Assembly (NCBI GenBank): GCA_031213475.1 | Contig: JARUPZ010000020.1 | Span: forward strand, 8,235,562 to 8,299,561 | From: Nereocystis luetkeana | Lineage: Eukaryota > Sar > Phaeophyceae > Laminariales > Laminariaceae | DNA length: 64,000 bases | Direction: 5' to 3' | Part shown: in pieces, positions 11,501 through 62,500 of the stretch | Position numbering within the stretch: position 1 is the stretch's first letter | How the letters are laid out: every line of letters starts with the position of its first letter | Program-made: the position numbers and the translations under genes | The notes under the pieces: generated by a model | Told to the model about the DNA's origin: nothing | The model's database searches: none | What the model saw: the letters and a program-made list of their open reading frames with translations, nothing else

Positions 11501-14500
11501 GTAGGTAACACCTTCACAGATGCGTGTTACGGCTAGAAAACGTGCGAACGTCGGGCGTTCGCATCAAAAAGGCCAAACGTGTAAATGTCCTCCGCGAGCG
11601 TCAACCACCAAGCGTTTCACAGCAAGCGCAGCCGAAAGTATACGCAAGGGCTTTCCACAATATATGGAGGCTTTTTCCTCCAGGGGCCATTTTGAAAAAA
11701 ACGCGAACGTCCTTTATTTTTCAAACGAGCGTCTTGTCAATACGCGAACGCGCACAAACGTGCAACGCGTACACACGCCTCCCTGGTTATATTTGCGGAG
11801 GTATAGGGGCGAAGTGCACGGGAAGAAACATGCCCCTACTACCCTGTAGTGCAGTAAGTGATTAATTTAACCCTTTTTAAGACTGCAGTCCCTTAGGGGA
11901 CAAACTACATAAAATTCGAGCGGTTTGTCCCCAAACGAGACTGCATGCTCTAAAGGGCTAGGAAAGCTAGCTGAAGAGAATTAAAAAAAAAAAACATGTA
12001 GCCTACGGGGCGCTCGCTGTCTAAAGGAAACTGTAAGAAAATATATCCCCTTCTCGCCTTCTCCACCAGAGGGATGTTGCCCTAACATCTGACTTCAGTT
12101 TTTTGTACGAGGGGACTGATACTGTAATGCAGGACGCGTAATCCTATGTAGTAAGAAAACGAGGACTAAGAAAACCAGGCACGAGATTCCCAGGAACGAA
12201 AAAAAAAGCAACAAATTCCGACGTGGTCATCTTGAATTCTAGTGTAGAGACCACCCTCTCCCGAGCAAAGAAAATCCAGGCTGGGCCTGCCTGTACACGT
12301 ATTTCTTCCTATTGCAGAGTTTTTGCTTCTAACAATACTACAGTGTTGGTCCCTCAATCTATAGTGCCGGCATGCATGCGCGGGCCAGCAATCCCGGCAC
12401 TACACCGGCAACCGGCATTACTCCACACACTGCCATACTGGACCATACCCTTTGTGCCAAGCGATTTTACAGGCACTACTGTACATGGCGGGAAGCCGGG
12501 ACTAAAGAGGGACCACTACCGCATTGTGCCCTTCAGCTCTTCAGCGGAGGGTTTTCTGGGCCGATAAGCGGTAGGAATCGCGTGCGCAGGTGCCACCCTC
12601 CCTAAAACAACCCTTTTGGGACAGCAGAGATACGGAGCGAGCGACCAACACAGCAGGATTTTGGTCTCATCACTCGCCTCTTGTTTTTTTACTATTGCGG
12701 GAGACCATAGTTAATAGGATCTATGGTATACGTTAAAACCTATATAGTTAACCGTGTTTACTAACAATATTTGGTGCTATTAACTATGGTCCCCCGTAAT
12801 AGTGTCTTCGCGCAGCAGTACGGTGGTCATAGTAACATGCTGCGCCCCGAGTCAAGGAGCCCCTACCATTGCTGCTTGACCCTTTTAGTGCTGCGCTGCA
12901 CAGACACACCTATTTAACTCTAATTCCAAGTGAGTTGTGCCCAAAACGGGAGTAAATTCCTGAAGGGGTTAACCCTGTTAGGACCGCAGTCCCGTTCTGG
13001 GGACAAACCAGTCAAATACTATGTAGTTTGCCCCCCAAAACGGGACTGCAGTCCTAAAAGGGTTAAGCCCGGTCACTAAAATCATCGTCAACCGACCAAA
13101 CAGTGGCCGATGCTGTCATCGACATTTTGTTGTGTCGTCAGTTTTTCCCTCTCAAAACCCTACACGGGGTTGACCAGCGCGGGGTAGCCCCGTGGCACCC
13201 GCGACCTCCTAAACTGGCGCGCAGTCCTGAGGCGCACATGCCCGTCTCGAGGAAACCCTACGCCCCGCCACGCCACGCCACGCCACGGGACTAACGTACA
13301 GCGGTGTGGGTACTCGGAAGAAACTGTTCGTGGTTCTCCGTCTTCACCGTTAAGCTATTGATCATGTAGCACGTACAGACTCCTGATATTACCTACCAGG
13401 TACCTGGTGCTTGTATTAGAGTAGTCTGGGTGTTACGAGGCCTAGTTTGGGTGGGCTGGTCGGTCAGCCTTTTTCCCAGTAGCCCAACAGACTGATGTAC
13501 CTTAATATGCTGGCACACGGAAAGCTTGGTTGTTTTCACCGCTTGCCGCAGCGGTTGGCGCCGTTAGTGAAAAAAAAAATCAAAAGAAGCGCCAAGTGTC
13601 ATCAGTCCCCGGATCGTCACCGTTCCAACACTAAAAACAGATTAGAGCATGTCAACCCCCGAAGTATTACCATTCAAACAGAAAAAAGGGCAGGCCATGC
13701 CAGACCCGGAACTCTCTGTTTTCTCCGCGTCACAACGGAGGGTGGATGTCAAGAGTTGGCACGTTTTTTTTCCCAAGGTCCATCCATACCTGCCAAAACT
13801 TTCGGTATCGAACGGCAGCCAGTTTTGGGTTGAAAACTTCGGCCCGCAGGAACATGAGCAGAAAGTCGTCGGTAGGACTGGGGGCTCCGCTCCACGCCGG
13901 ACGCTCGGCGAGGTTAGCCCTCATTGCCACCAGACTCGCCGCGACAAGCTCCACGGTTTCTTCCACCAGAAGCTGCCGGAAGGGACCAGGGGGTGTTATG
14001 TATCAGGTATTGGGCAGGCGTTGGAGCTGCTTGCGGTGTTGAACAAAGCTTGAATGCTGTTTACGTTCGACTATGTTGTTGTCGTTGCCTCCAGCTTAAA
14101 CTATTAATTCCACCCTACGACATCAATACCCCAAGTACCCACCTTGATAATTCACCCTGGAGGGATACGCGTACTACAGTTGTACTTTCTACTTGGTACT
14201 ATTTTTCCCGAGTTTATTGCAGTAAGATGAGTTCACAGTCACAAGTTCTGGACTGAGCCAACTGCCATAGATTAGAAAAGACAGATACCGGGCACGAAAT
14301 GACCTTAACCCCTTTAGTTCCGCAGTCCCGGATTGGGGGCAAACCCGTCTAATTCCGAGTGCTTTGTCCCCCAAAAAAGGGACTCGAGTACTAAAAGGGT
14401 GAATGATCCCTTCGCACGTTTTCCCCCCTCTCGGTGCCATCCAATCTCACACGTACAACCGACAGCCTCCACGCCCACACAAACACAACAAACCTAACAA

Positions 14501-15283: not shown

Positions 15284-15858
15284 TGCTAGAAGTTCGAACA
15301 AGGAAGGGGTGCTTGTACCGCTGCTGCCGACGGAAGGGAAAGGAACTGCCGTGTAAAGGGACGGCAACAGTAATACACACGATCCTATTCGTACGGGTAC
15401 ATGATGGAACCTGGCGTGATGTCACGACGCTATGATCATGCACAGCTTACAGCTGACAGGTGCAGTAAGTACATACCAGGTATCCACTGGGAAGCCGACA
15501 CGTGCTACAGGTAGGTAGGTATACTTCGTATCTAACCAACGGCGTCATGCATCATGATAGTTGTGGCAGGGATCTACACAACATTTGTGGTGACTCTCAC
15601 CTGTAATACTCGTCGTTCTAGTCAAGGTACAGATAGCGTGCCTGCGGGCAGCGTGAAATCTCGGTGGCTCGGCGGCTCGGTGGTGAAAGTGACCAAGCGC
15701 AAGGGGGGTGCATGGTGCATGGCATAGCCATGTGTCGCGCATGCGCGGAAAAAGCGGCGAAACTCTTCGCACATTTTGGCCCCGCTTGAATAACGCCTTC
15801 TTTGGTGTGGAGTTCCTTTGTTCGTTTTTTAGCCACTCTCACAGCAGGTGCTAGCAAC
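15284..15858. promoter_or_regulatory. Presumed bidirectional upstream region
   Basis: 575 bp separate the ATG of the minus-strand CRAL-TRIO gene from the ATG at 15859 on plus. It presumably holds one or both promoters. I see no TATA box at a convincing distance. ggtaggtaggtata and a TA-CCAGG-TA footprint motif (15474-15482) are present. Inference from position only. Confidence 0.35.
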
Positions 15859-15960: not shown

Positions 15961-16597
15961 ATCAATTTGTCGTTTAAATTTATGACATTTTTTTGGTGCG
16001 GCGTAACCTATTGTCACCAAACAACCGTACGAGTACTGACCGATATCCTGCTGCTGTCTGAACTTGAACTTCTGGTACTCGGACGCCGTTCGCAGTGCGT
16101 ATGTATAGGCAGCACAAAAGTGCACCAGGGAACCTAAGGCCCACTCTTAACAAAAAGTTCGGGAGTTTCGCATGAAAAAATCGCGCTGGAGAGCTATCTT
16201 GGCTCCATAATCCATAATTTCAGGCGGCAGTGCATTGTCATACCAGGTACGTATGATCATGCAAGTCCCCGCCAAGTCCCCAAAGCTAATGCTGTGCCGG
16301 AGGGAAAGCAATGACCCAGCCAGTTATCTTGTACCAATCCAAAACCAAGAACAAATGGAACGAGGAGCGTGACAGACGCCTTCAAGTGTGGTCAAACTCC
16401 TATTCATATGAATCGCTGCATTTAGCTGCTTACTGCGTTGGCGGTTCCGCTATTTTTACTGTGTTCCAATACCATATTCGCGCGTCAGCACAGAAAACTT
16501 GTACGAGTATAGTGGCTGGGTGGGCATGGGTAGGGTGGGTGTGGGCTGGTTGGTCCCACCATCACCAACACCACCCACCAACAACATTTCGATGTTA

Positions 16598-21825: not shown

Positions 21826-22390
21826 TCGATGCGTGAGAGCGCAACTACATTTCGTGGTGAAGTGGGTGGGCGTCAGGGGGGGGGCAGGGTGTACCGGTAA
21901 TACCGAATAAGGCCTTCTTAGCAAAAAAAAGCATTGCACGTCGTAAAATAAATATTCAACTACAACCACACCAAGTGGAGAAACATCAACAATAATAGCT
22001 GGCGGGAGGGCGGAGGGAAGTATTGAACACACAACAACAGCAACAACAACAACACCATCTGGGGGGGGGGGGACAAATCAACAACATACTACAACACCAT
22101 CAAGCAAGTGCAATCACAAATCATCAACCACAAGCAGCTATTAATAACAACTCAACACAAAATGCTAAAAAGACCAGGTATATACCAGGTAGTAACGAAC
22201 GAAAGGCCACGGCTGCTGTACACCGCCTAAACAGCAGCAGTACGTACCTGGTACCTGGTACCGCAGGTTTTGGGAACTGATCAGGCGGATATCAACCATT
22301 ATGGCACAGTCCCCGTTGCCCTACTTCCATGCCAACATATTCATGTGAAACCCGTACCGTGATCGAGTACAAGTGTTTTGGAGTACTTAC
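21826..22390. other. Non-coding, simple repeats and TA footprints
   Basis: A CAA-rich stretch (about 22026-22052), a G run at about 22061-22071 and several TACCAGGTA motifs (22173-22198, 22246-22261). A CAGCAG/CTGCTG pair is at 22210-22240. No gene seen. Confidence 0.45.
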
Positions 22391-24195: not shown

Positions 24196-24234
24196 AGCTA
24201 CTTTTATACCAGGTACCTGGTACCAAGTAGTGCT

Positions 24235-33027: not shown

Positions 33028-33416
33028 TAGTGTACACACTCGTTGTTCTCAACAGTGGTTATAGTATTATTATATTAAAGTTAGTGTACCATCGTACGTA
33101 TTCATAGTGGTAGTGAGTGTGGTATAATACTGCTGCTGGTATACGCGTGCTTGGCATTGTACCGGACCGGCATACGAGTGCCAGGTACCAGGGTATGAGA
33201 TATTTTTATTTTTGTTTTTTGGTAATGCAGGCGCCGAAAGATCATCCAGTGTCGTATTCCAGGTATATATATGATATGTACTGGCGCCCGTCAGGCAACA
33301 ATGTTGATGTTTTGCCTCATATACTTTGCTTCGTCCCCGACTTATAGGATGACTCTGACTCGTACGTGGGCGGTGGCGTCGTTTTTCCAATCTATATACC
33401 TGGTATAATATCAGTA

Positions 33417-33528
33417 TTACGGGGGGCCATAGTTAACAGGACCTATGGTACACATAAAAACCTACCAGGTATATGTTTAACCATTTTTACTAAAAATATT
33501 TGGTCCTGTTAACTATGGCCCCCCGTAA
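33417..33528. mobile_element. M1 MITE with a 7-base internal gain
   Basis: 112 bp instead of 105. The extra bases give cctaCCAGGTAtatgtttaa where other copies read cctatatagtt or cctacatattt. The gain is exactly CCAGG plus a TA (33463-33471). TA on both outer sides. Confidence 0.9.
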
Positions 33529-35059
33529 TAGTAGCCCGGCCCGGGGTTTTGTGATTTATTTCCTGCAACAGAGAAGTGTCAGTGATGGACATCGAACGAG
33601 AATCGAGTTCGGCATGAACGACATCGTTAAATTCCTAATCTACAGCAGACAGTGTAGTGTTAATAGTTGTTGATGATGATGTGATTGAGATTTTCGATCG
33701 AAGCTTTTGATGCAAAGTCAGCATTTAAACTCTTGAATCCCTGAAAATACCTGGATAACAAGGGATGGAAGGTAAAACGCGTTTGTTCTCGATATACCTG
33801 GTATACGATATATATATATATATATAATATATCGAATTTCGATATTTCGATGTATCGCAAAAATCGATATGATATAATTATCAAGTGTGTATGCGATACC
33901 AGACAGGGTACCTATTAATAACACCAAGAATGGAGTTATAAACTGCTCTGCTGTAGATCAGGACATAAATGGGCGCGAGCGGGCGGACTTCTTGCTGTGC
34001 TCTCTTCTTCCAGATATACACTCCAACGATACATGCTACGTACCAGTATCTTACATCGAAATTTTGGATACGATTCTTACCGAAGATTTCGATACGATAT
34101 CCAACACTAAAGTAAGAGGGATATTAGTTAGATTGGGGCGGGCGGGCGATCTTCTTGTTGTGCTCTCTCTTCCAGTAAGTGCACGTTAAGTGTGCAGATA
34201 TTTCCCAGGCCACGGCGTGTCTCGGCTTTCTTACTATTTTTTCGAAAATGCCACCAGACCTCAGGCTATATGACTACATTAACCCCTCCCTGTAGAACGG
34301 TAACCGCAGTCCCGTTTTGGGGACAAACTACTTGAAATTTGAGTGGTTTGTCCCCAAAACGGGACTGCGGTTCTAAAAGGGTCAAGTAAAAATTGGCCAC
34401 CCTCCTTGGAAATCTCCCTCTCCAAACTTTTGACGGTTTGGCACGAGATTTGGTGAGATAACATTCTTCCTGTCTGTATGTCTTGCCTGTCTGTGTTTTT
34501 CCTGCTGCTCCAACGCCGAGCGTGTCGCAGTCGATGGAATGTTCGTCGTGGAATGCGCGCTCAATTAATTGTCGACGGCAGACATACTATACATGTATTA
34601 CACATACATATACCTCGGATAGATAGATCATGATCTAGATGGTCTATAGTTCCTTATCTACCTGCCGTTGTGAGAGGTTTTGTTGCACAGGAAGATCTGC
34701 GCAGCGCATTATACAAGTATATGTATCCAACCCAGGAAACATACGCTATATAATGCAGAATATACGGCTGGCTCCCATCCGGTAACTGATAATATAATGA
34801 GTTATGTAGCAGATCATACAAGATCGCTAATTGATCTATCTGTCTTGAAATATCTAGATCAATCATCAATCGGAAACCAATGACGATTCGTCCGAGGTGT
34901 GCAGTATACATACACACGCATACATCCGTCAGTTGAGGGAATACGTCAGTTGAGGGAATACGTGTACTACAAGCAGTAGATACATAAATACATAACGGGA
35001 CCCTCAATAGATTGTTGTTGTTGTGTGCTCTCAATACTATTATGTTCCACGTATGTATG

Positions 35060-35092
<33 letters not shown>

Positions 35093-35784
35093 GTGCTGCC
35101 TATCACGACAACACAGACAGGCAGTCTGCTTGCTGCTGGATGTGGACGTGGATTCTGTGAAGCCGGGGCCTCAATTTGGTCAATACCTCTTTTTTTGTGT
35201 TGGACATCGTGTCGAAGTTTTTCGATACATCGAACTATAATATCACACTTTTTACTTTCGATCGATAGAAATACTACGAGGTATACCCAGGTAAAATTAT
35301 TTATTATTATTTCGTTTGCCATCTGACAAATTGCCATGTAATACTATGTACCAGGTATGTGTAAAGTGGTGAGTGTCCGCAACCGAAAACATGATAATAT
35401 AGTATATGTATGTTATTTATTATGTACATCATACCTCCTCCCTGGCATTATCTCACGAATTATTATAGACCTACTCCCCCCCTCCGCAAGGGCCTCGTAC
35501 AACAACACGCCAACAACAACAGCAGCTAGGAGCTGTATATCGAACGTGTTTTGCCCTCCATCCCTGGCATTCTCTTACGAATTATAGCCCTACTCCCTCC
35601 CTCCGCAAAAGGGCCTCGTACGACAACATCATCAGCTATTTATTAATAGAAGCTGCATATCGAACGTGTTTGCCCTCCATCCCTGGAATCCCCCTCCTCG
35701 TGTTTTTTATGCAGACTGAAAGCTGTTTTTGTGTATGTTACGCATTTTGGTACTTGAAATGCACTACCTGGTACCTGGTATTTA
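33529..35784. other. AT-rich intergenic DNA with short repeats
   Basis: Contains an M2 copy (34279-34385), (TA)n at about 33808-33830, (TATG)n at about 35050-35092 and repeated TACCAGGTA motifs (for example 33796, 35350, 35766). Two similar lines (cctccctggcattatc and ccatccctggcattctc) near 35440-35690 form a triplicated segment of about 110 bp. No gene seen. Confidence 0.5.
34279..34385. mobile_element. M2 MITE
   Basis: TTAAC at 34279; arms accgcagtcccgttttgggg and ccccaaaacgggactgcggt pair perfectly. Among the best preserved copies. Confidence 0.85.
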
Positions 35785-37361: not shown

Positions 37362-37566
37362 ACCACGTCAACACGTCAACACCCGCTACGTTCTCTACTG
37401 TTGCTGTGCTGTTACATTTTTTAGAATCGCAAGAATGATCCTATTAATACCAGGTATACTAAAATTCTCAAGTATTTTGTCACCAAAAACGTGGGTTCAG
37501 TACGACGAGTATTAATCTTAGTAGTATGATCTGGTATAAACCTGATGTTTTATATTTCATTTTACC

Positions 37567-37628: not shown

Positions 37629-38004
37629 CATATGGTATACCAGGTATGACATACCCTGGTATGGGTTTTTCACTGCATATACGTACGCGAGTCTTCACTC
37701 TGTGACAGCACTCCAGATAGCAGGCAGCTGGTGTGTTTCTCTTTCGTGTTCACGACTACCGTGCGTTTCGTACGGTGCAGGCAGCACTCCAGACAGCAGC
37801 CGCTGTAGTCAGCAGCCACAACTTGGTTTGTGGTGGGAACGGCGACACTCTGTACCTGGTATGTTATAGTTGAGAGGATATACCTGCGGCCATGTTATTA
37901 CCTGGTACCTGGCATGTAATAGTTCAGTTTGCACATTGGTTTTATTTTGTGTGCGCTTTCTTCGTCCTCGTGTATTTTGAGGCAGCCGAATATCGTTTTT
38001 TTGT

Positions 38005-38098: not shown

Positions 38099-38856
38099 AT
38101 ACTCTGTACCGAGAGTGCTGTCAATCTCTCCAATATGTTGCTTACAACCTCAACGTAGGATGTATCAGAGGTGTACCTGGTACCAGGTACGTCGTTTTCG
38201 TGCGGTCCTGGTGTCAAGCTAACATATTAATAATACGAGTCGTGGCTGGATTTTTTTGCACATATTTTGTTCCTGTTTCGATACGAATCTTAATCTTCCA
38301 ACGACCATATTAGCGGCAGTATCTATTCATAGATCTATACCAGGAAGGATATAGTAGTGTGTGTGTTTTTTTAACTCAGCTCCGTTTCACGCGCAGATAT
38401 GTAAGATGGTGTTGCCATCTGAAGGCCCTTCTGCCGCTGCTACTATGAAATAATAAGAGCAGCAGTAGTGCGTAATGACCCTGCGTATAGTCCTTCTCTC
38501 TTCATGACCCCGACTCTCGCCAGACAGGACGACAGCTGTTCCGTACCTCTCGCGAGAAACGCTCGAATCTTCAGTCACTGCAAGGTCTGCAGTTCTGCAG
38601 TTTGTAGTTGCTGTTGTGGCTACCAGAGAGCGTGGCAGGGAGTGGAAATTGAAAAGTGGGAAAATTGAGTGATACGAAAATCGAAAAATGGATATTTACG
38701 GGGACCCACATTATTATTAATAATAGCGATCAGTACCCATCGTATCCACTAAAACCTAACGCGCGCGGACCTCCTTTTTTTCATGTTTTTGTCTGAAGTG
38801 TAGATGTGCTTCAGTTATCGTGTGTACCAGGTACTACTTTTTGTTTGTTTTATTTT

Positions 38857-38964: not shown

Positions 38965-39117
38965 CCTTGTATATACCTGGCGTTGAAGTATATTTATTTT
39001 TCTACCAGGTATACATGTTTGGCCCCTGATTTCTCTTGTCCCCCGTACTACTGCTGTCTGCAGTAATTCTATACATCCACACCACCTTCGAGTACAGGCA
39101 TAGTCTACGTACAGGAG

Positions 39118-39369
39118 ATGTATTTTTCAACACCTACCTGCAGAACCATTTTCCGAAATAATGTTGTGCCAGGTGTACCACGAATACTGTCACGTTATGA
39201 ACTCACACCTCGTGACTTACGCGGTAGAAATACCAATGCAGCAGTACCTGCAGATATGAACATACCTGGTATGTACGTGTGTAAAGGTCGTGATGGTGAA
39301 TTGAGTACTCGAAGTTTGCGATTATATCAAAATGCACGCGACGTTTTACCCGAGATTGAACCAGTATAA
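39118..39369 (+). other. 83-codon open frame, unassigned
   Basis: An ATG-started frame with moderately coding-like residues (RYELTPRDLRGRNTNAA) ends just before an S2 SINE. It contains two TACCTGGTA-type motifs. No family or splice partners are recognised; probably chance. Confidence 0.2.
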
Positions 39370-39640: not shown

Positions 39641-40298
39641 TGTCCAGAAGATCGCCGAGGGTAAAACTTCGTCGTCAAGCTGAAAGTAAAAGTGATGTCA
39701 AGTTAAAAATAAAATAAAAAAATGTACCTGGTAACAAGAATGTACTATTAACAGTATTGCACAACAAAAAGTGTGCTGCAGCTTTTTTCATGGTTCCGTG
39801 GTGTTGATGTGTTTGATGGGTCAGCCAAGTTCGGCCGTGAACAAACTGTGGGACGCCCCAACCTTCGACATGCGTGGTCCTGCTCCGAGGTATGATTCTG
39901 CTCCGAGCCACATGTGTACGTACTACTGCTGTGCGTATTATTTTTCATGTGTCGCGTGTCGCAATGTCGCACCACTACATATTCTGAGCGGGAAAGCATG
40001 ATGGCCGGGGGCTCCCCGCCGGGGTCCTGTAGCCTGCTAGCCTGCAAGTACGTGGCAACGTGCCGTGAGGTGCCGTGAGGTGGGCGGTCAGTTGTTGTTA
40101 ATGTTGGCGCTGCCGTTGTTTCACGAGGTCCAATGATACAAACAGCACGTCTAGGACTGATGCACTCCCATTGTGTGCACGGAACAGTCGGATTTTTTAG
40201 CATTTTTTTCGGTGCATGTATGCATGTATGCATGTACACAACAATGCAGTACTACGAAAAAGGGTTAACTATCAACACCTATCAATGAGCGCCTCGGA

Positions 40299-41400: not shown

Positions 41401-43179
41401 AATAGACGACATACTGGTATACAACATGGGCCCGCCAACATTATGGGCCCGCCAACAGGCAATACGCATTCTGAGCTTCTCGTGGCGCCATCCTCGAACA
41501 ACCTTGACCCCAGGCTAGTATGCACGGTAGGACTTAATGTAGCTATAGCACTCGTCGACGCTGAGCACGATGTCTCGATCCAGTTTCTTTAGCGTCCCCC
41601 CCCCCCCCCCCAAAGTACGAAAATCTTTCGAGTATTCTTGCTTGGGTCTTTTTTCCTTGTTCGTTTGGGCGTATACTCTGTACCTGATATTTCCAGATCC
41701 ACTTCGCAGTTTCAATGTGTTACCTCCCCCCCCCCCTGTTTTTAGTGACGACTGGGAAATTCTTAGCACACGGGGTGTTGTCTTGCGTGTCATGTTATAT
41801 CAGAAGACCACTAAAAACCTACACACCTCATAGGACATAGGACGCTTTGGTCGAAGTGTCACACGCTTTGATCGAAGTATCACCCCAAGCTTGCAAACCT
41901 GAGTTATTTATTCATTTATTTTCATCTCAGGGCTCGGGCAGAGTGGTGTCTGGTATGACAGCAACGTTTGATTTCAGTTCACAGATTGCTCTGCACCTTG
42001 TCTCCGGCCCGATGGGCTCTCTTTTTTTTCTGAGAGGCAGGGTGTGTCTTACCCTACTGTCAGTATATCGTATGTATCGTATGGGAAGATTTTTTTTTCT
42101 TTCTTTTTTTCGCCCGAAGGTCGAGACGAAAAAACCCTACGATTTTACGACATACTCGCAAATATTATTATTTGCCGGTTTCTCTTTGTAGCGGTGTTCT
42201 CTGTGCCGTGTTGACGTCATGACCCAGCCTAGAACTCAAAACTCAATACAGAATACCTCGGGTATATATAGTCTAGCCATGGAGCCACTGACGTTCCGTG
42301 AAAGGACGAGCGAACTGCGAGCCAGCAGTGCTTGGAAATCATGTGCATGTATATACCTGTTGATTCGTGTGCATGTATGTACCTGTTGATTCATGTGCAT
42401 GTACATGCCTCTTGAGCTGTTGATGCTCTCAGCAATCAAATCGAAGGAGATGAGAGATGAGCAAATCACTAATCAGCATCATTATCCTACTACTAGTGGT
42501 GGTTAGACATGATACCTGACCAGTAAAATGTATCAGAGTGCCATTGTATGATTTCGAGCACAACCGGTATCGCGTGTATGCATACGTGATCTCATACATA
42601 CCATATCATATAGTGTGCGTACTGCCAGTTACTGCGAATACGCATACCTGGTATATTACATGGATGCGAAGCGAGCGATACCCCCCCCCCCTCTCCTCTT
42701 CATACATTAGATATCAACTTCGTCAATGGTAACCGTTTAGTCTAGACCTACAGTAAGGAAGCAGAGCGACAATGCCCCCCCCCCCCCCCCCCCCCCCCCT
42801 CTCTCCTGCTTTACGTTTGATAGTGGCAAGTGCGTATATTGCTTCCGGGTATACTTCACTCGCCTCATGAAGCTCTAGTACACCCCGTGCATTTGCTTCA
42901 ATTCAACCCTCCGGCTCTTCTGATGTCCTGATGTCCTGACCGCCTGCTTCAATCGTCCGGTTTTGATGCCGTCCCGGTGTCCTGGTCGGTTGCAGGAGGC
43001 CTGCGCCCGGCGATATCTGGTGGGGCTCGACTGGATGGCCTCGCGCGCTGTCATGGCAATTTCGAAGGTGAACACAATCGACGCATGGTGCATGTCAGGT
43101 GCTGCCTGTGTACCCTTGTAGTACGGTGGCATGGGATTGCATGATCTGCTGCCCTTACTGCACTCTTTTGGTGTTTTGT
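41401..43179. other. Intergenic with long C runs
   Basis: C homopolymers at about 41596-41610, 41726-41737, 42681-42690 and 42775-42799. A 16-17 bp tandem of tgtgcatgtatatacctgttgattcg type lies at about 42340-42410. No gene supported. Confidence 0.4.
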
Positions 43180-43975: not shown

Positions 43976-44102
43976 GCCCAGAGTGATACCTGGTACTCGG
44001 TTGTAGCGCTGCCTCGTTTTTTGGGGGAGACGGGGGGGAAGGAGGGTTCAGCCCCTATTCCTTTTTAACCTCGAAAACCCAAATCCACTTAACCCCGTGT
44101 TA

Positions 44103-46290: not shown

Positions 46291-47344
46291 TCAGGCCCTC
46301 GGGCCATGATCAAGCCCACGCACGGACAGAGAGTGGCACAAGACTCGAACCTAGTGTACATGTATGCAACAAGTGTGCACGCCGGCTCTTTTCGGGCAAT
46401 TAAGCTACTGTTGTACGTACATACGGGTTACCAGGTACAGACAGTACCCGTTTTTTTTTTTTCTTTTTTCTTTTTCACGCTTTCTTTTGAGCTCAACTCC
46501 ATCGAGTAGGGAGGCTTTTTGGCCCACAGCGGGCCTTCTGGACTTCGTATGAACCATTCGTCGTCAGTAGATCTTAGATTTGGAGGATAAGGAGTGGGTT
46601 AAATGGACAAGAGCCGTGGTCACTGGTGTCTCCTCCCCCCCGCCCCCTCCCGCGAAGTACTTGGCTCCATTTTTTTTTTTTAAATGCTCATGCCAGTATA
46701 GGGGTCTTTTTGCATTCCCACGTTTCGCATTTCACTTACTGTATTTGCCGTGATTGATTTGCCGTATGTACACGAGTATATATATTTATATATATATATA
46801 TAATATACATATTATGTTCTCTTGTTTCACAGTCTGTGACCAGACAAGTTGCATCTCTCTGGGATATAGAATCAGGACGGGGACTCTAATGGGGTGCACT
46901 GATGCGGGTGGGTACGAGATAGCGGTCCAACGTGAAGACAACGCTAAACAAGGTGCTCGTTGGTTTTCGATCGAAGCAGTCGGTCGCTGCGAGTACGGCA
47001 GCAGGGCTGTCTTCTCGCCCTCCTTTGACGATTACTTGCCCTCATTACGATCGTTGGTCTCGGGAGTGGCGAAGTTGACCCAACTAGCCGACTCTCTTTT
47101 TGTTTTGTTTTTGTCTTGTTTTGTTTTTCCTCGTTTTCCCCGTTTTCCCTGGCAACAAAACGGGTGGTACGAACCACGAACGTTCGAGGTCAGGTACGGG
47201 AACAAGAGCGCAGGGTTTCCCCCAAATTACGGCACGCAACGCAGCTGTATTACAGTACCTGGTAGGTACCAGTAGCCAACTTTATGACTACGTCGGCGAC
47301 TTATAGGCAGCTAGCTCGCAGCCCTGTTGGTTACAGCACGCCAC
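46291..47344. other. Intergenic, one unassigned open frame
   Basis: A frame of 173 codons (46754-47275) includes a mildly coding-like stretch ARWFSIEAVGRCEYGSRAV behind a possible acceptor ttgtttcacag, but there is no clear donor or family. Not called. Confidence 0.25.
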
Positions 47345-48215: not shown

Positions 48216-49104
48216 TAACAATAAACCCGATTCAAGCAGCATAAAAAAGACCACCCACCAACCAACATGTTCTCCTTTCTTTGTTGATTTTTCACCAGGT
48301 GCTCCTCAAGATTTCCGCAACAACATCGTCAACAAAGTGCTTCACCCACCAGAGACGCCCATCAAAAAGTCAAAACATCATCCAATAAATCCCGAAATTC
48401 CGCCGTATCTTTAAGTGATTGAACAAGTTTTCCCGCCATTATTTGATTGGTGGAGCGTTTTTTTCTGCCGAATTTGATGGGTGGAGGTTCCGATAGAACC
48501 GAAAACGAACGGCTACAATTCACGTACGAGTATACCAAAGGAGAAACTTCTCCCTACACACTTCCACAACAATTATTCGCGATTCATCTTAAATAACTGC
48601 AATTATGAACCTACATTATTTTCAGGTAGTGTTCACGCTCTCTTTGGTGGATCCCCTAACCATACACGCCTCCTTCTTTGGCGTATCCCCTGACCAAACA
48701 CGCCTCCTATCTACATTGCGGATCCATCGCGAACGAGGATCAAGCTCGATGCGAACAGCGTCGAACGAAAAGCTACTGCTGTACGTGGTCGATATGACTT
48801 TCGATACTTGATACCTGGTACATAACACTTTCGCTCACTTAAAAACTCAAAACACCGGATGCCGGGGGGGGATGGAGGGCAAAAGACGTTACATAAGATC
48901 ATACCGAAACACCGCATACGATCATATCGCAACGTTCGATATTTCGATGTTGTTTTTTTTTCGATATCCAACACTACGCAGTGATCAAGCACGGAGATGG
49001 GTATATCGTGGCATTTGGGAATTGGCCAGCGCGTGGTTCCAACAACAGGGAGAGATACTTATTTCGAAAAGAAACGATAGCCCTAGAGCTGCAGCACAAT
49101 TCGA
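48216..49104. other. Intergenic, nothing recognised
   Basis: Two near-identical phrases (ttggtggatccccta and tttggcgtatcccctgacc) lie at 48645-48695. No supported gene. A TACCTGGTA motif is at 48812. Confidence 0.35.
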
Positions 49105-51300: not shown

Positions 51301-51867
51301 GGGGGGGGGGGCGGCGGGGGGGTACTCATTTGTTGCTTGCCTTCAGTCATTTGACCATTGCCACGTACCAGGTATCCCTTTCGAGACGGAGCACCGTTCT
51401 TACTCCTAATGGAGACGCCTGCAACGTTTGGGCGCTCGTTACGGTGTTTGCACGTATTACGTACCTGGTATAATTTTTCGCTAGACAATTCCCCTTTCTG
51501 TCTCGCCGCCTTTGGCCACCATCCATCTCCTAGGATAGCGATCGTTTTCTCGCTATCCGGTAATGGTGTCTAAAACTCCTCCATGTCACATTCGTCTCTT
51601 TCCCTCGTCTCCGCTTCTGACACATCCCGTTCCTCCTTGTGCTTTTCACATTCTCCTACTCTGTGAGTTCTACTCTCTACTGCTTTGCCACACGGCCACA
51701 TCTGTGCATCTACTTCCTCCTCCTACCGGCTACTGGTATACCTCTTTTTTCTGGCAGGTCCAGGTCACCTACACGAAACCGTAGTTTCAGTGTTTTCGCG
51801 AAGTTCATTGGGCCGAGCACATACGTTTTCTTTCCTATCCCTCTTCTTAGTCCCCCGTATATATCTA

Positions 51868-51972
51868 TTACGGGGGGCCATAATAAATAGGACCAAATAT
51901 TGTACGTAAAATTAGCCAAATATCTAGGTGTTTGTGTTTACCGTAGGTCCTATTTAAAATGGTCCCCCGTAA
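51868..51972. mobile_element. M1 MITE inside the LINE copy
   Basis: 105 bp, left TA present, right flank CA. The LINE sequence continues on both sides. Confidence 0.85.
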
Positions 51973-52234
51973 CAAGTTTTTCTCCGAGTTCGCTAGCCTT
52001 TCCCTTTTTTTCTTTGCTTTCTTCTACTTCTGTCTTGTGCGTCCCTAACTTCTCTGCGGACATCATGTCTTCTTGGTTTGCTTCTATCTTATTCTATATT
52101 TTTTCAACTACGCTACCCCACCTTATTCCAGCTTTCCCTTTTGTTACTTTCTCCCGTACATCTCTACCAACTATGGCTGGCAACCTCTTTTTGGCATATT
52201 TCTTTCTTTATGGTGCCATTTCAACTTTCTCATG

Positions 52235-52454
52235 TGTGTGTTCTTCACATTAAACCGTTCTTTCTACCCGTCGACATCCAGCACAACCAGTGTCCGTGCC
52301 GATTCTTCAATCCTAGAAGAGATACAAGTTATGTGGTCACAAAGCTACGCCACAGAGGTACTACGCTGCCACGTATGCAGTAAGCACAGCAGTGGGCAAT
52401 GCAATGCCATGTCATCATGTCATCATACTGGATACGACAGGCACGACATACACA
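52235..52454 (+). mobile_element. M5 element inside the LINE copy
   Basis: 220 bp between direct 8-base repeats ttctcatg (52227-52234 and 52455-52462). L1 and L2 are uninterrupted here, giving an empty site. The element starts tgtgtgttcttcacatt and ends gcacgacatacaca, a weak TGTGT/ACACA inverted end. The 8-bp duplication would fit a hAT-like origin. Confidence 0.75.
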
Positions 52455-52523
52455 TTCTCATGCCTCTACGAGTATGTGTCTTGAGTGGGTACATTCCCAG
52501 CTCTGCTCTCAATACTGTACCAG

Positions 52524-52524
<1 letters not shown>

Positions 52525-52608
<84 letters not shown>
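52525..52608. repeat. (ATT)n microsatellite
   Basis: About 28 uninterrupted ATT units, starting directly at the TA of a TACCAGGTA motif inside the LINE copy. Confidence 0.95.
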
Positions 52609-56255: not shown

Positions 56256-56423
56256 TATTATACAGATACCTGGTACTGCACAACACCTCAGAACGGCAGG
56301 TTAGGATCTACTGTAGATGATCTGCTGTAGAGAGGTAGATAGATAGATAGATAGATAATTATCTGTTCAAGGCGTGGAAGCTTCTGCATCACCCCCGAAT
56401 CACGCAGTGGTCGTCGCGCTTTA

Positions 56424-56537: not shown

Positions 56538-59500
56538 GAGTCGAACTGATGATTCGACGCCCAGCCCGAAACTTATTATGTCCCTCCCCCCCCCCCCCCC
56601 CCTCTTACCGTGCCGCGCGGGTGTCTTTGCTTGACGCGGCGCAGACGATTCGCTGGCGGCTGGACATAGGGTTGCATCGTTCTTCGATCGGTCGAGGCGC
56701 CTGCGGCCAGATGCGAGACTGCGACTTTTTACCTATGGACGAGAACACACCGATCGTGAGTACCCAGTGCATTCCAGGTAGAGGACATTTTATCGCCATT
56801 TTCTGTTGTTGTTGTCGTTGTTGTTGTTGTTATTATTTGCGAGGCGCCGAAAAACTTGGGACTCCTTTCGAGATGGCTTGATGCGACCGATCGATCGACC
56901 GACCGACCGATCGGGATTCGCCGGCGCATACATGTTGACGACAGGTCTGCTCGACACCCGCGGCGTTTTGACAGCACTGCACCCCCCTACTAATTGTATA
57001 GTCATTGTTGATATTACGGGGGACCATAGTTAATAGGACCTATGGTAGACATGAAAACCTACATATTTATTATTTTTTACTAACAGTATATGGTCCTATT
57101 AACTATGGCCCCCCGTAATAATAGTACTACTGGTATATACCGCCGGGCAACACAACCACCGCAAGCACCACCAACTCTCCCACCAATACCACAACCACTA
57201 AACTACCTGCAACACCAACACCGCTGCCGCCGCCACCACCCGCCAACGCCACCGCCTTCGCCACCACCAACCACTGCTCTCCCCATCACCACCCCCTAAT
57301 ACCACCACCACCACCATCCACCACTACCAACACTGCCACCACCATTCTCACCACCACCATTACTACAACCATTCTCACCACCACCACCACCATTCTCACC
57401 ACCACTACTACCTCCAAAAATAACGCCATCACCACTACCAACACCACCCCCAGCCCCGGCACCGACGACTGCCACCCGCGTCCCCACCACTACCATCGCC
57501 ACCACCGTCACCACTACCACCACCACCACCACCACCGTCACCACCACTACCCCCACCACCACAATCACCACCACCCCCACCACCACTACCGCCGCCACCA
57601 CCACTACCCCCACCACCACACCACCATCCTCCCCCCGACCACCACCACTGCCTCCACCTCTACCACCACCAACACCACCACCACCACCACCACACCATTC
57701 CCCTAGTATCTTGGGTCGCTTCTTGACCTCAATCGGCGCCTCCTTGACCCTCCCCCTCCCCCGTCCCTTCTCTCCGCTGCGCCCGTCCCCGTCCCCTTCC
57801 CCCCTTGGATTTTTTTTTTTCTTGCATTCGCTTCACTTTTATTAACCCTTGTAGAACCGCAGTGTCCCGCTTTGGGGACAAACTACTTGAAAAGTTGGAG
57901 TGGCAATGTCCCCAAAACGGGACTGCGGTTCTGAAAGGGTTAAGTGCTACCCGGTACGATATATTGGGCATCAAAGCTCACTCGATTATAAATTATTGCT
58001 TTTTTGGGCATCAGACGAATTACTGCGTACCTGGTACCTGGTGGATTGTACATAACAATGGATAGATGCTGTAGGAGTCCGACCCTCGGCCCTCTCGCTC
58101 TGCATGTCCTCCCACCTGCCCCCCCCCCCCCGCCCCCCCTCGCCCGCTGCCGCCACGGCACAGCGCGTTAGCCCTGTCAAGGATGCTGAGGGGAGGCCCG
58201 TGGTGATATTCTCGGCTGTCCGGTGGCCAAAGGACGACCGAGAATGGCTGCGCATGCTGATCGGAGCATTGGAGGTACGGTACTATATGTTTGTGCGAGC
58301 ATGCTTGAGGAATACCTGGTAGTAAATTAGGTAATCGAGAGATAAGGAATACCTGGTAGGGAGTTAAGAAAAAGGGAGCTACTGCTGTTTACCAGGTGGG
58401 AAGTTTTTTTTAAAATTTTATTTCAAAGCAGTCCAGAAATAGGGGCTCGACTTTTTACACGAAAACATGAGATTGTTTTTGTTTTACTGCTGACATTAGT
58501 GTATGTGTGTGTTTTAGTCTTGTTCCGTCTCTCTTCCCCGTTTTTTTAGGTAAGTCGGCTTCTTTGTAACTCTTCTCCTGACTCTTTTTCCTCGTCTGCA
58601 TGTGCGTTCGACTCTACCTTCTGTTTTTCGTCCCGTCTCCTTTTCCTTCTAATTCATTGGCCTCCTTTTCCGTTATACTCCTGCCTCTTTTTCCACCCCC
58701 TGTCATACGTGTTTTCATTTTGTCTCTTTTTTATTCGTCTCTCGTCTCTTGTTTACCTTGCCCTTTTCCCTTTCCCCCGCCCCTGTTTTTCTCCGCAACG
58801 GTATCACATTAACCCGCCGCTTTTTTCGCGACGGTTTCGCTCCATTCCTATTGGCCCGCAGGTGGCAGCGGTGCGACTGAGGGCCGATCGAATGTCGCCC
58901 GGGGGGGGGAGGCGACCGCACGAGGGCGAAGGGAGGAGCCATAGCGGGGGGGACACTTGGCTGTGGCTGGTGGACATGGAAGGGGCCGGGCCGGGGAACG
59001 CTCCGGCGTGGCAGACGTTGCGAAACCTGGACGGCATTCTCGCCGCTCACTATCCCGGGAGGTTGAGAAACGTGCTGATCGTGAACTCGTCAGGTGATTG
59101 GTTGATTGGTTGACTGGTTGATTTGGTTGCTCATTGCATCAGGTGGAGGGGGAGCAGGGGGTAGAGTTGCTGGTGCGCGCGCGCGCGGGGGGGGGGTGTT
59201 AGGAGAAATGTGCTGATCATGAACACGTCAGGGGATTAATTGATTGATGGATGGGTGGATTGGTTGATTGATTGTTCGTTGCATCCGGTATCATAGAGGG
59301 GGGAGGAGGGGTTGAGTTGCGGGTAAGTGTGTGTGTTAAGGGATACTGGATGTACAACCATAATAACCACTGAGCTACGTGACAGTCATCGGTGTTAGAT
59401 ATATCAAAACAGGTGCTCTATAGCCACTGCGCTACGTACGTGTATGGCACACCCTGGGCTGGGCAACCGATCGATCTTTACCCCGATCATCTATACCTGG

Positions 59501-62500
59501 TACCTGGTAGGTATATAAATACCTTTCACATCTGGCGTCGTCGGCAGGACACGGGTTCGGGTTCGAACCTCACTTCGAAAGTTTATGTTCGAGGAAACGC
59601 TTGCGCGTGCGTCCCGATGATTATTACCAGTCTGTCTGCGTGGGTCCCCAGGAATTGGAACGGAGTTTGGGTACTGTAGGCGCGTACTACTCTGCCCTTG
59701 CTGCGAACATGAGGATACAACGTGAGGACCCGTTTGTGTATCGTTTTTTTTTTTGTCTTCTAAAAATGAATAGCCTTCAATGGCTCAGGTGGTTCCTAGC
59801 CTTACTTGACTCGACCTGTTTGCAGCTGCATCGTACACAAAACTTTGTGCAGGGCTAGGGTCTTGCTGGTCGACAAGGCGGGTCTTTTTTTTTTGGTCGC
59901 CCAGCTTTTCTTTCGAAAAACGCCACCAAAACACGCGGCGGAGCCGCCTGACTGCCCCTGCTGCCGACCTCGAGCCCTCCAAAGGGTCGGGGTTCGGGTT
60001 CGGGTTCGAGTTCGGGTTAGGGTTAGGGTCAGGCCAGGGGTTGGGTTGGTCTGGGTCCCCACGTGCAAGGTTGAAGTTGACGACATACGTCCTGCGCAAA
60101 AGTTTTGTGCTGGATGCAGCTGCACGTAGCGAGCACCGCCTTACACAAGGTATTTCTTAGCCTTACACAGGTATTTCTTAGTACTGATAGTACTGCAGTA
60201 CAGTCCCGTTTGGGGGACAAATCACTCGAAATCTAACTGGTTTGTCCCCAAAACGGAACTGCGGGTCCTAGAAGGGTGGAGGCGTGAATAGCGGTATTTC
60301 TTGGCCTCAAAAATGTGTCTTGTGTTCATCTCTGTGTCGAGGCACAGCTCAATGGGCTACTATTACGGGGGAGCATAGTAAATAGGATCTACGTTACACA
60401 CAAAAGCCTATATAATTCCCTATATTTACTAACAATATTTGGTCCTATCTAATATGCCCCCCCGTAATATGACAGGAGTAGAAAAAAAAAGGGTGCATTT
60501 GCCTCTTTCCTGCCCTGTAGACGTAGCCCGTGTCAATCTGTCCCATTACATAAGGACCGCTTTCACACGAATTGTTCAACCGACCTGTGCTTATTTTTTG
60601 GGGGGGGCAGAGTGGTAATGTGAGAGCACACGATCATGGCTCTCAAGAAAAGAAACCGACGCTCAGTAGGATAATGTTCTGGGGAGTTGTGGTTCCAGTT
60701 TCTGGAGTTTACGTACAGAGTAGACCCCCCCCCCCCGTAAGTCAGTGTTCGCTGGATCGTGCTCGCTGGATCGCGGGTCAAGACAGGATCACAGCTTTGA
60801 CGGCGCGAGAATAACAGCAGCTGTTGGACGGGTAGCGTTCATCGTGTGCAGCCAGACAACTGGCGAGCGCTTTTCCCGTACGTAGTCCCTTGCTCTGTTC
60901 GGCTGCTGGGCTACGGGCCTTCGTGAGTAGGAGAAACGCACACGATCACGACCGCTGGAGAAAAGGAACCGACGTACAATACCACTTCATACATGCGGGG
61001 AGTATATTGGGTCCATATCATGGCATCACCAGAGGGGGGCACTCGATCAGGAGATATGTACTCGATCTCATGCATGGCCGTAGTCAGAGGGAGGGGCACT
61101 AGATACTAAATTACCACTTTTAATATATCCCGGGATATACTAATGACCGTTTTTAGAATACTATTGAAAAGGTCCGTACATATCGGTCCAAAGTGATCTA
61201 TAGGGCCGCATGTACGGAGATCCCGTCATGCGATATACAAGCGCGTACGTCGCAAAAAACATCCCGCCGTTCCGACGGGGGAAATTATGGTGTGTTTTCG
61301 AAGAATTTGGTTGGAACCAATTTGATTTAAGTTTCTTGCGGTCTGATTCCTGTGTGCAAATGGCCCCAGCATACGGGCCTTTCCCAAGAGTTAGCCCAAC
61401 CCTAATGCTTGTGTATACGCGCGGGTTACCCTGAGGTGGGCACTCGATCGAAGGGGGAGGGGGGGGGGGGGGGTGGTGTACTCGATAGGAGAGATTTACA
61501 CTATCTCATGGATGACCGTAGTTGTATGACCATAGACCCTCGCATCCCTACAATGCCGGGACGATCGAGGAGGGAAGAATGCTTATACCCAAGGCTCACC
61601 CTGGGCTGGGGGTAATCGATGGGTGTTGTTTCCCGACAGCACAGCAGTAGCCTGTCACCTTCACTTCTGGCCGCTGTTTTTACGTAGCTCAGTGGTTTTG
61701 GTGCGTAGCACTATGTCCGGAAATATAAGCACCGTCCGATACTCACATTGTTAACCAAATGGTCCTCACGTTTCCTGACAGCGCGGTATCCAACCGAGTG
61801 GGGGGGGGGGGGGGGGGGGGGCGCTTGCGGGGTCGCTGATACATACCAGGTACCAGGGATGCTATTTCTGGTTTTGTTGCATGTTCATTCAACCACGCGT
61901 CTGGAAAAAAAGGCGTTGCTTTGACCGGGAAGTCATCACGTCAGGTGGTGAACGTTCTGCGAGTCGAGGGACTCCGGGCAGTGGAAGGAGGGGGGGGAGG
62001 GAGGGTGTCAGGTGTGGCGTTGGTTGTTGGCATGTTTTTTTTTTCGTTGTTGTCCGCGTTCAATCATTTTCTTGTCTTGCGCCTTCTAGTTGTGTTTCAC
62101 CCCGCCGCAATGCCTTTTTTTTGCTCGCATTATTTTACTGTAGGGCGCATTTTTCTTTGTCCCCCTATTTTTCCCCTCTCGTTCGCTCCTATCTTCGCTC
62201 CTCCTCCTCCTCCTCCTCCTCCTCTTCCTCCTCCTCCTCCTCCTCCTCCTCCTCCTTCTCCTCGTCCTCCTCCTCCTCCTCGTCGTCCTCCTCCTCGTCG
62301 TCCTCCTTCCCACCTATTTTTACTATTACTAAACTTATCTAGTACCGTATGGTCGGAAATGCAAGGGGCGATTTGTATAGACATTGATGTATAAACGTTT
62401 CTTATATTTCCGTCCAGAGTGCCATGACATATATGTATATACACGGAGTATACCTTAACTACAGCAGTCGTCTATATGGCATACTTGATGGGTAGCGGTT

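Follow-up and report, generated by a model that had tools for sequence, protein, structure and literature searches.

Seven-base gains at TA sites across the Nereocystis luetkeana genome, probably the excision scars of a TA-specific transposon

A LINE copy (L3) in a 64,000-nucleotide stretch of the Nereocystis luetkeana genome (GCA_031213475.1, contig JARUPZ010000020.1, positions 8,235,562 to 8,299,561; hereafter the window) carries the motif TACCAGGTA or TACCTGGTA (together TACCWGGTA) at three places, raising the question of whether the same few bases were gained repeatedly at TA sites and what left them there. A sequence-only reading placed the motif at 51366, 51472 and 52518 and took each case for a clean gain of seven bases, CCAGG or CCTGG plus one TA, at a pre-existing TA. 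The positions 51366 and 52518 were correct; the middle motif starts at 51462. The three are listed in window coordinates (no strand is assigned to these or to later features, and the word scar anticipates the reading favored below):

51366..51374, scar TACCAGGTA in LINE copy L3, absent from the 21 other aligned sequences
51462..51470, scar TACCTGGTA in LINE copy L3, gain also in L035, L039 and L044 at that TA
52518..52526, scar TACCAGGTA in LINE copy L3, adjoining a TTA microsatellite

L3 was aligned with the copy L1 and 20 further copies, drawn from 40 places among the matches listed. At 51462, a bare TA was present in 17 of the 22 sequences and TG in one (L048); the seven-base gain was present in four, with the core CCTGG in L3, CCCGG in L035 and CCAGG in L039 and L044, showing a recurrent gain at one LINE TA (4/22). 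At 52518, which was compared with L1 only, L3 reads CTGTATTAC and L1 reads CTGTACCAGGTATTATT..., again a seven-base gain. The scar at 51366 was found in L3 only (1/22); the other sequences read CGCA (20 of 21) or CGAA (L032), and L3 also lacks one A nearby, so that the net difference was six bases in 26 of 27 homologs. Since homologs read CA or AA at this position, a pre-existing TA was not seen there, which counts against the excision reading given below. The observation as a whole was confirmed.

The same comparison was extended to other repeats. The sample held 125 scar sites, 19 of which were testable, having homologs that cross the site with an identity of 80% or more; four of the 19 came from the LINE family, which was fetched on purpose, and two are the same site in a MITE. 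Homologs most often lacked 7 bases at ten sites, 6 at five, and 5, 9, 16 and -8 at one each; the mode was never 0. By contrast, among 318 testable cases of 1,083 other TA-N5-TA motifs, the modal difference was 0 in 237 and 7 in only six. An ancestral motif explained by losses, or gains of random length and core, had been named beforehand as results that would speak against the proposal, and neither appeared among the sites compared. The seven bases, CCWGG plus TA, are a gain and not a loss, as observed directly in these alignments. The MITE belongs to a second TA-flanked family, very abundant in the sample:

33417..33528, MITE with ends TTACGGGG...CCCCGTAA, TA-flanked
33463..33471, scar inside the TTACGGGG MITE, exactly 7 bases missing in 28 of 43 homologs

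The motif is abundant well beyond the LINE. It occurs 39 times in the window, whereas 100 shuffles gave 0.51 on average and never as many as 39, and is the most frequent TA-N5-TA word there (39 of 299; the next core has 12). The motif search of the window gave these further positions:

13394..13402, scar TACCAGGTA
15474..15482, scar TACCAGGTA
16241..16249, scar TACCAGGTA
22183..22191, scar TACCAGGTA
22245..22260, double scar (T,T)
24207..24222, double scar (A,T)
33397..33405, scar TACCTGGTA
33795..33803, scar TACCTGGTA
35349..35357, scar TACCAGGTA
35765..35780, double scar (T,T)
37448..37456, scar TACCAGGTA
37638..37646, scar TACCAGGTA
37853..37861, scar TACCTGGTA
37899..37907, scar TACCTGGTA
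38174..38189, double scar (T,A)
38825..38833, scar TACCAGGTA
39003..39011, scar TACCAGGTA
39263..39271, scar TACCTGGTA
39725..39733, scar TACCTGGTA
42645..42653, scar TACCTGGTA
43987..43995, scar TACCTGGTA
46429..46437, scar TACCAGGTA
47256..47264, scar TACCTGGTA
48812..48820, scar TACCTGGTA
56267..56275, scar TACCTGGTA
58028..58036, scar TACCTGGTA
58313..58321, scar TACCTGGTA
58350..58358, scar TACCTGGTA
59494..59509, double scar (T,T)
61844..61852, scar TACCAGGTA, then TACCAGGGAT (61851 on)

Across the genome (465,085,209 bases, 1,987 contigs) we counted 182,395 copies of TACCWGGTA and 1,744 of the reversed pattern, an excess much larger than the sequence-only reading had noted when it proposed such a count. 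This number is a direct observation, and part of it may be scars copied inside other repeats. Some scars listed on contig C1 have recurring flanks. A 282-kb sample contained 121 scars against 2.7 expected under a third-order model, and all 121 left flanks were distinct. The two halves of the motif, ACCAGGTA and ACCTGGTA, ranked first in enrichment among dispersed 8-base words (those with at least 25 distinct flanks) in 318 kb. Scar densities from the sample are rough because the sample is non-random (besides the window it comprises 20 stretches chosen at round coordinates, loci of which six out of eight were retrieved for a match to the motif, and DDE_1 loci), whereas the genome figures are whole-genome pattern counts. 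Among 138 cases in the sample, the center of CCWGG was more often T (82) than A (56), an imbalance that is strand-arbitrary. Open frames of at least 200 codons held 7 of 139 scars and 1,636 of 18,024 TA, a difference that was not significant (p = 0.058).

When scars were removed, the emptied sites displayed a palindromic preference on both sides, W-A-N4-R-TA-Y-N4-T-W. Left and right flanks taken apart in 109 arrays agreed closely, with W at position 7 in 85% and 83% and A at position 6 in 50% and 49%. Genome-wide, W stood at both -7 and +7 in 123,968 of 182,395 scars (68%) and in 520 of 1,744 reversed-pattern matches (30%); in the sample, the share with W on both sides was 29% for TA in general and 30% for the remaining TA-N5-TA motifs. 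The preference is thus seen directly, and its two-sidedness fits what a symmetric transposase would give. The LINE hot site fits it; the MITE hot site, ATAAAAACC-TA-TATATTTAACC, does so roughly, as judged by inspection. Only 0.77% of TA in the sample carry a scar. Most scar arrays were single (112 of 125), and 13 had two or three units, eight of these with the same center. A scar, reading T-A-CC-W-G-G before TA, would itself be a good half-site (T-A-N4-G), which would favor re-use and tandem scars.

Variants of the core were scored by both flanks, and are given here as the count followed by the number scoring above 1 (target-like). CCAGG/CCTGG was dominant (138, 100). Target-like flanks were also seen for CCAG/CTGG (35, 15), CCA/TGG (68, 24), CCGG (19, 6), CA/TG (288, 69), CCAGGG/CCCTGG (11, 7), CCATGG (2, both) and the one-base changes CCTGA (7, 4) and CCAGC (3, 3). 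Flanks were not target-like for CAGG/CCTG (16, 2), CCTGGG/CCCAGG (3, 0), CAG (130, 17), CC (121, 16), CG (179, 21) or CCCGG (13, 3). The minor forms are therefore polarized, as the counts themselves show: CCAG, CCAGGG and CCATGG are target-like and CAGG and CCTGGG are not, indicating that the element began 5'-CCAGG. Overhangs reading CCTGG would give the variants that are missing. The sequence, register and polarity of the overhangs are in this way read from scar spectra, not from biochemistry, and are to be taken as putative. At the MITE site there were 115 non-canonical matches, and among the 100 listed, 95 had CCAGG and five CCTGG; these are not to be taken as 100 independent events, since some of the copies may stem from a single MITE that already had the scar. 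In 20 of these MITE-site places, CCAGGG stood directly before TA in 12 (L088 and L091 with filler after it), CCAGGGG plus TA in two (L079, L092) and CCTGGG in one (L087). In L091 (C7:5751146, + strand), a MITE copy, TA-CTTCGAAG-TA comes after TACCAGGG and might be a scar that a further element left at this site.

The motif is very probably what a TA-specific cut-and-paste transposon, cutting with an unusual 5-nt stagger, left behind on excision; copies of this transposon would now be missing, scarce or unnoticed. A transposon with the ends 5'-CCAGG...CCTGG-3' would have inserted at TA, duplicating it. A staggered cut would later have removed the transposon and left its five terminal bases as 3' overhangs on both flanks. 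Two CCAGG overhangs could anneal by four C-G pairs around an A-A mismatch, and repair would yield CCAGG or CCTGG, so that every cycle would add CCWGG and one TA. Annealing one base off register would produce the minor forms CCAGGG/CCCTGG and CCAG/CTGG, and the transposase would prefer the palindromic target described above. Overhang length, annealing and transposase are what we infer; they would explain the seven-base gain, the mostly A/T center, the palindromic preference, and why the minor forms have the polarity and register they do. The earlier suggestion that CC(A/T)GG is the product of two annealed CCAGG overhangs is consistent with that polarity and register. Joined double ends (27; control 3) point both ways: TACCAGGCCTGGTA occurred 10 times and TACCTGGCCAGGTA once, which speaks for excision scars, and 16 had equal centers, which simple end joining does not predict and which tells against them.

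The MITE family served as a positive control for scarring by a TA-specific element. The palindrome TATTAATA (TA-TTAA-TA) occurred 83 times in 318 kb against 8.8 expected. Target preferences at MITE ends (38 flanks) and at TATTAATA (163 flanks) were correlated with each other (r 0.72; T-3, A-2, C-1, A-8) and not with those of the CCWGG scars (r -0.09 for MITE ends and -0.23 for TATTAATA). Because it shares the MITE target preference, TATTAATA is most simply the MITE's own scar, apparently a fill-in product that keeps two bases from either end. It seems, then, that scars in this genome come from two or more TA-specific families. Other TA-bounded words were also in excess in the sample, namely TACWGTA, often as CTACWGTAG (130 vs 51), TACAGCAGTA/TACTGCTGTA (32 vs 1.8) and TACGAGTA (54 vs 14). 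These are possibly the scars of further families; their flanks differ from CCWGG flanks.

A search for full TA-flanked CCAGG...CCTGG elements with a transposase gene, the remaining check proposed beforehand, recognized none in the 282 to 318 kb scanned and the loci sampled. Scanning 282 kb for TA-bounded inverted repeats returned no CCAGG-ended element, and four inverted-repeat matches starting with CCWGG were rejected as pairs of scars. When 63 non-scar continuations of TACCWGG in 318 kb were ranked by target score, no two formed a family, although single ends would pass as chance. TA-starting words with target-like flanks in the sequence scanned likewise gave no family, the high ranks being scars, MITE words and short words. 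The LINE site used as a trap gave 0 matches for TTNCATATATTACATACCWGGV, a number that has no denominator. The TACCAGGG trap (WANNNNRTACCAGGGV) had 1,829 matches and its reversed-pattern controls had more (19,609 and 19,780); the control is probably swollen by the MITE word GGGACCAT and is therefore no yardstick. In 20 of 100 matches listed for this trap, no continuation was shared except by the pair L071/L072, which also had an identical flank; CCAGGGG plus TA was present in six of the 20 and CCAGGGA plus TA in four. TACCAGGGATAATGTA, seen twice, has only two copies genome-wide and was taken as chance. At the MITE site, 20 of 100 listed places (115 matches) and nine more contained no recognizable intact CCAGG element. 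In L082 and L088, two of the 20, the MITE sequence did not resume within 100 bases, and L082 extended to 5.1 kb had no right end. A terminal repeat CCAGGCACCA (L095, L097, L098, L101) was dropped, as three of these four places can be accounted for by tandem scars in which a T has become C. That no CCAGG-ended element was recognized in the sequence scanned or the places examined counts against excision scars.

Six-frame genome searches, which can miss intron-bearing genes, found 0 matches to DDE_3 (PF13358), which matched three of 14 control genomes, and 0 to Transposase_1 (PF01359), which matched no control genome. DDE_1, the transposase domain to be expected for the pogo branch of Tc1/mariner, had 28 matches, and none of the six examined (four loci and two 100% identical copies) had CCAGG terminal repeats. 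L053 (C2:7916500-7925000) and L054 (C1378) were 100% identical over 8,489 bases, and equal-score DDE_1 matches lay also on C809, C872 and C1099, reflecting recent duplication or haplotype contigs. The piggyBac domain had four matches; weak matches to piggyBac-type transposase exons lay in open frames at C1:13445620-13447973, C1:6556318 and C2:19028214. Other coding sequence and repeats were seen at sampled loci: Helitron-like open frames at L021:3-4230 (Helitron_like_N, then a PIF1 helicase with an OTU domain), a 3.7-kb inverted repeat at L017:28-3749 with TACTCSGAGTA words recurring near its ends, and an open frame of 584 aa at L016:4797-6548 (- strand) with six EsV-1-7 cysteine motifs (E 1.6e-60). 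According to PMC12477816 this domain has proliferated in brown algae, and most of its other known occurrences are in giant viruses; the open frame thus suggests a brown-algal host.

Four other explanations were weighed. Overhangs of 2-4 nt, joined by partial annealing and gap filling, would leave the same type of scar with no need for a 5-nt stagger; they are in keeping with the 2 or 3 bases given for Tc1/mariner in PMC3878927 and with the target-like flanks of many CCAG and CCA sites (15/35 and 24/68). Against them, CCWGG is the dominant form (100 of 138 scoring high), four bases pair perfectly when 5-nt overhangs meet in register, and TACCATGGTA, expected of blunt CCA joins, was found only twice, so we regard shorter overhangs as unlikely. 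It is very unlikely that an enzyme adds CCWGG at TA directly, with the seven bases as the inserted unit and no prior transposon: the gain is very uniform and no intact element was recognized, but minor products that differ in length show one polarity and the same target preference, and the second TA-specific MITE, still resident, appears to scar likewise.

Many scars combined with full elements that were not found, and DDE_1 genes that have no CCAGG terminal repeats, might also point to a host-encoded (domesticated) transposase that cuts and joins during programmed DNA removal, as in ciliates. Scars sit, however, in LINE and MITE copies and in unrelated flanks, and no link between a host gene and the sites was seen, making this highly improbable. 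That selection or slippage spread the motif, as a conserved binding site or as the unit of a tandem repeat, is hardly credible: the motif is palindromic and the few multiple arrays often repeat one center, but nearly all arrays are single, the left flanks are all distinct, the polarity of the variants is impossible for a symmetric site, and the seven-base gain over homologs contradicts it. Excision of a TA-specific transposon with a 5-nt stagger is preferred over these alternatives.

Among known elements, Minos is Tc1-like, targets TA, leaves a 4-base footprint and has a longer stagger than Tc1; the TA target and the longer stagger would be common to Minos and the source of the CCWGG scars, but Minos has four bases, not five, and another core. 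The Sleeping Beauty and Tc1/mariner excision footprint is C(A/T)GTA (PMC3878927, Table 1). As in Sleeping Beauty, a TA target would be duplicated and a terminal-base footprint with an A/T center left together with TA; unlike it, the footprint would comprise five terminal bases rather than three, and the target preference is W-A-N4-R-TA-Y-N4-T-W rather than TATA (PMC4825651). Insertion at TA with TA duplication is indicated by the bare TA in homologs and the TA on both sides of the scar; CCWGG plus TA with polarized minor forms would correspond to a footprint of terminal bases. It is supported, by analogy, that the CCWGG scar works like a Tc1/mariner excision footprint. The sequence-only reading was right that five-base overhangs would be unusual for that group: the 3' overhangs given in PMC3878927 are 2-3 nt and the inferred mode here is 5, an excess that tells against the excision reading. 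Membership in Tc1/mariner is not claimed, because of this stagger and because the searches above yielded neither a Tc1/mariner transposase nor a terminal repeat. T stood at -1 in just 7% of flanks and scars were left, which differs from piggyBac (TTAA target, footprint-free excision), and the base adjoining TA was variable, which differs from PIF/Harbinger (three-base TNA/ANT duplication). Stowaway MITEs, plant Tc1/mariner elements, re-use a TA site and leave varied footprints of 1-4 terminal bases, also beside an older footprint; unlike the source of the CCWGG scars they are still resident, and PMC1925063 describes them at single loci, not genome-wide. Brown-algal Tc1/mariner families (TcMar), one of them a MITE relying on an autonomous element, are described from Ectocarpus in PMC12477816, where no CCAGG-ended family was noticed and whose main text lacks the word 'footprint'. 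No report of such genome-wide scars was recognized in a search of open-licence papers; 217 of these contain the 9-mers in their text, and the 20 listed bear unrelated titles.

What is new is the putative five-base stagger, a distant target preference seven bases from TA and the number of scars with no source found. The undescribed TA-specific transposon proposed beforehand gains support from the scar spectrum and the target preference; neither its full element nor its transposase was found, and it is deduced from scars alone. More tentatively, it may represent an undescribed lineage with a 5-nt stagger and a 16-bp palindromic target that hopped so fast, in the past or still today, that it left about 182,000 scars and almost no residents. 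Few residents and many scars would be expected from a high ratio of excision to insertion, and extinction would give the same picture. If the excision reading is right, the halves of the scars would document transposition in a way that one would not expect ordinary repeat annotation to reveal, and scars would disclose how an element ends, its polarity, the stagger of its cut and its target preference ahead of the element itself. Cut-and-paste activity could then be counted from leftover marks, also for elements now gone.
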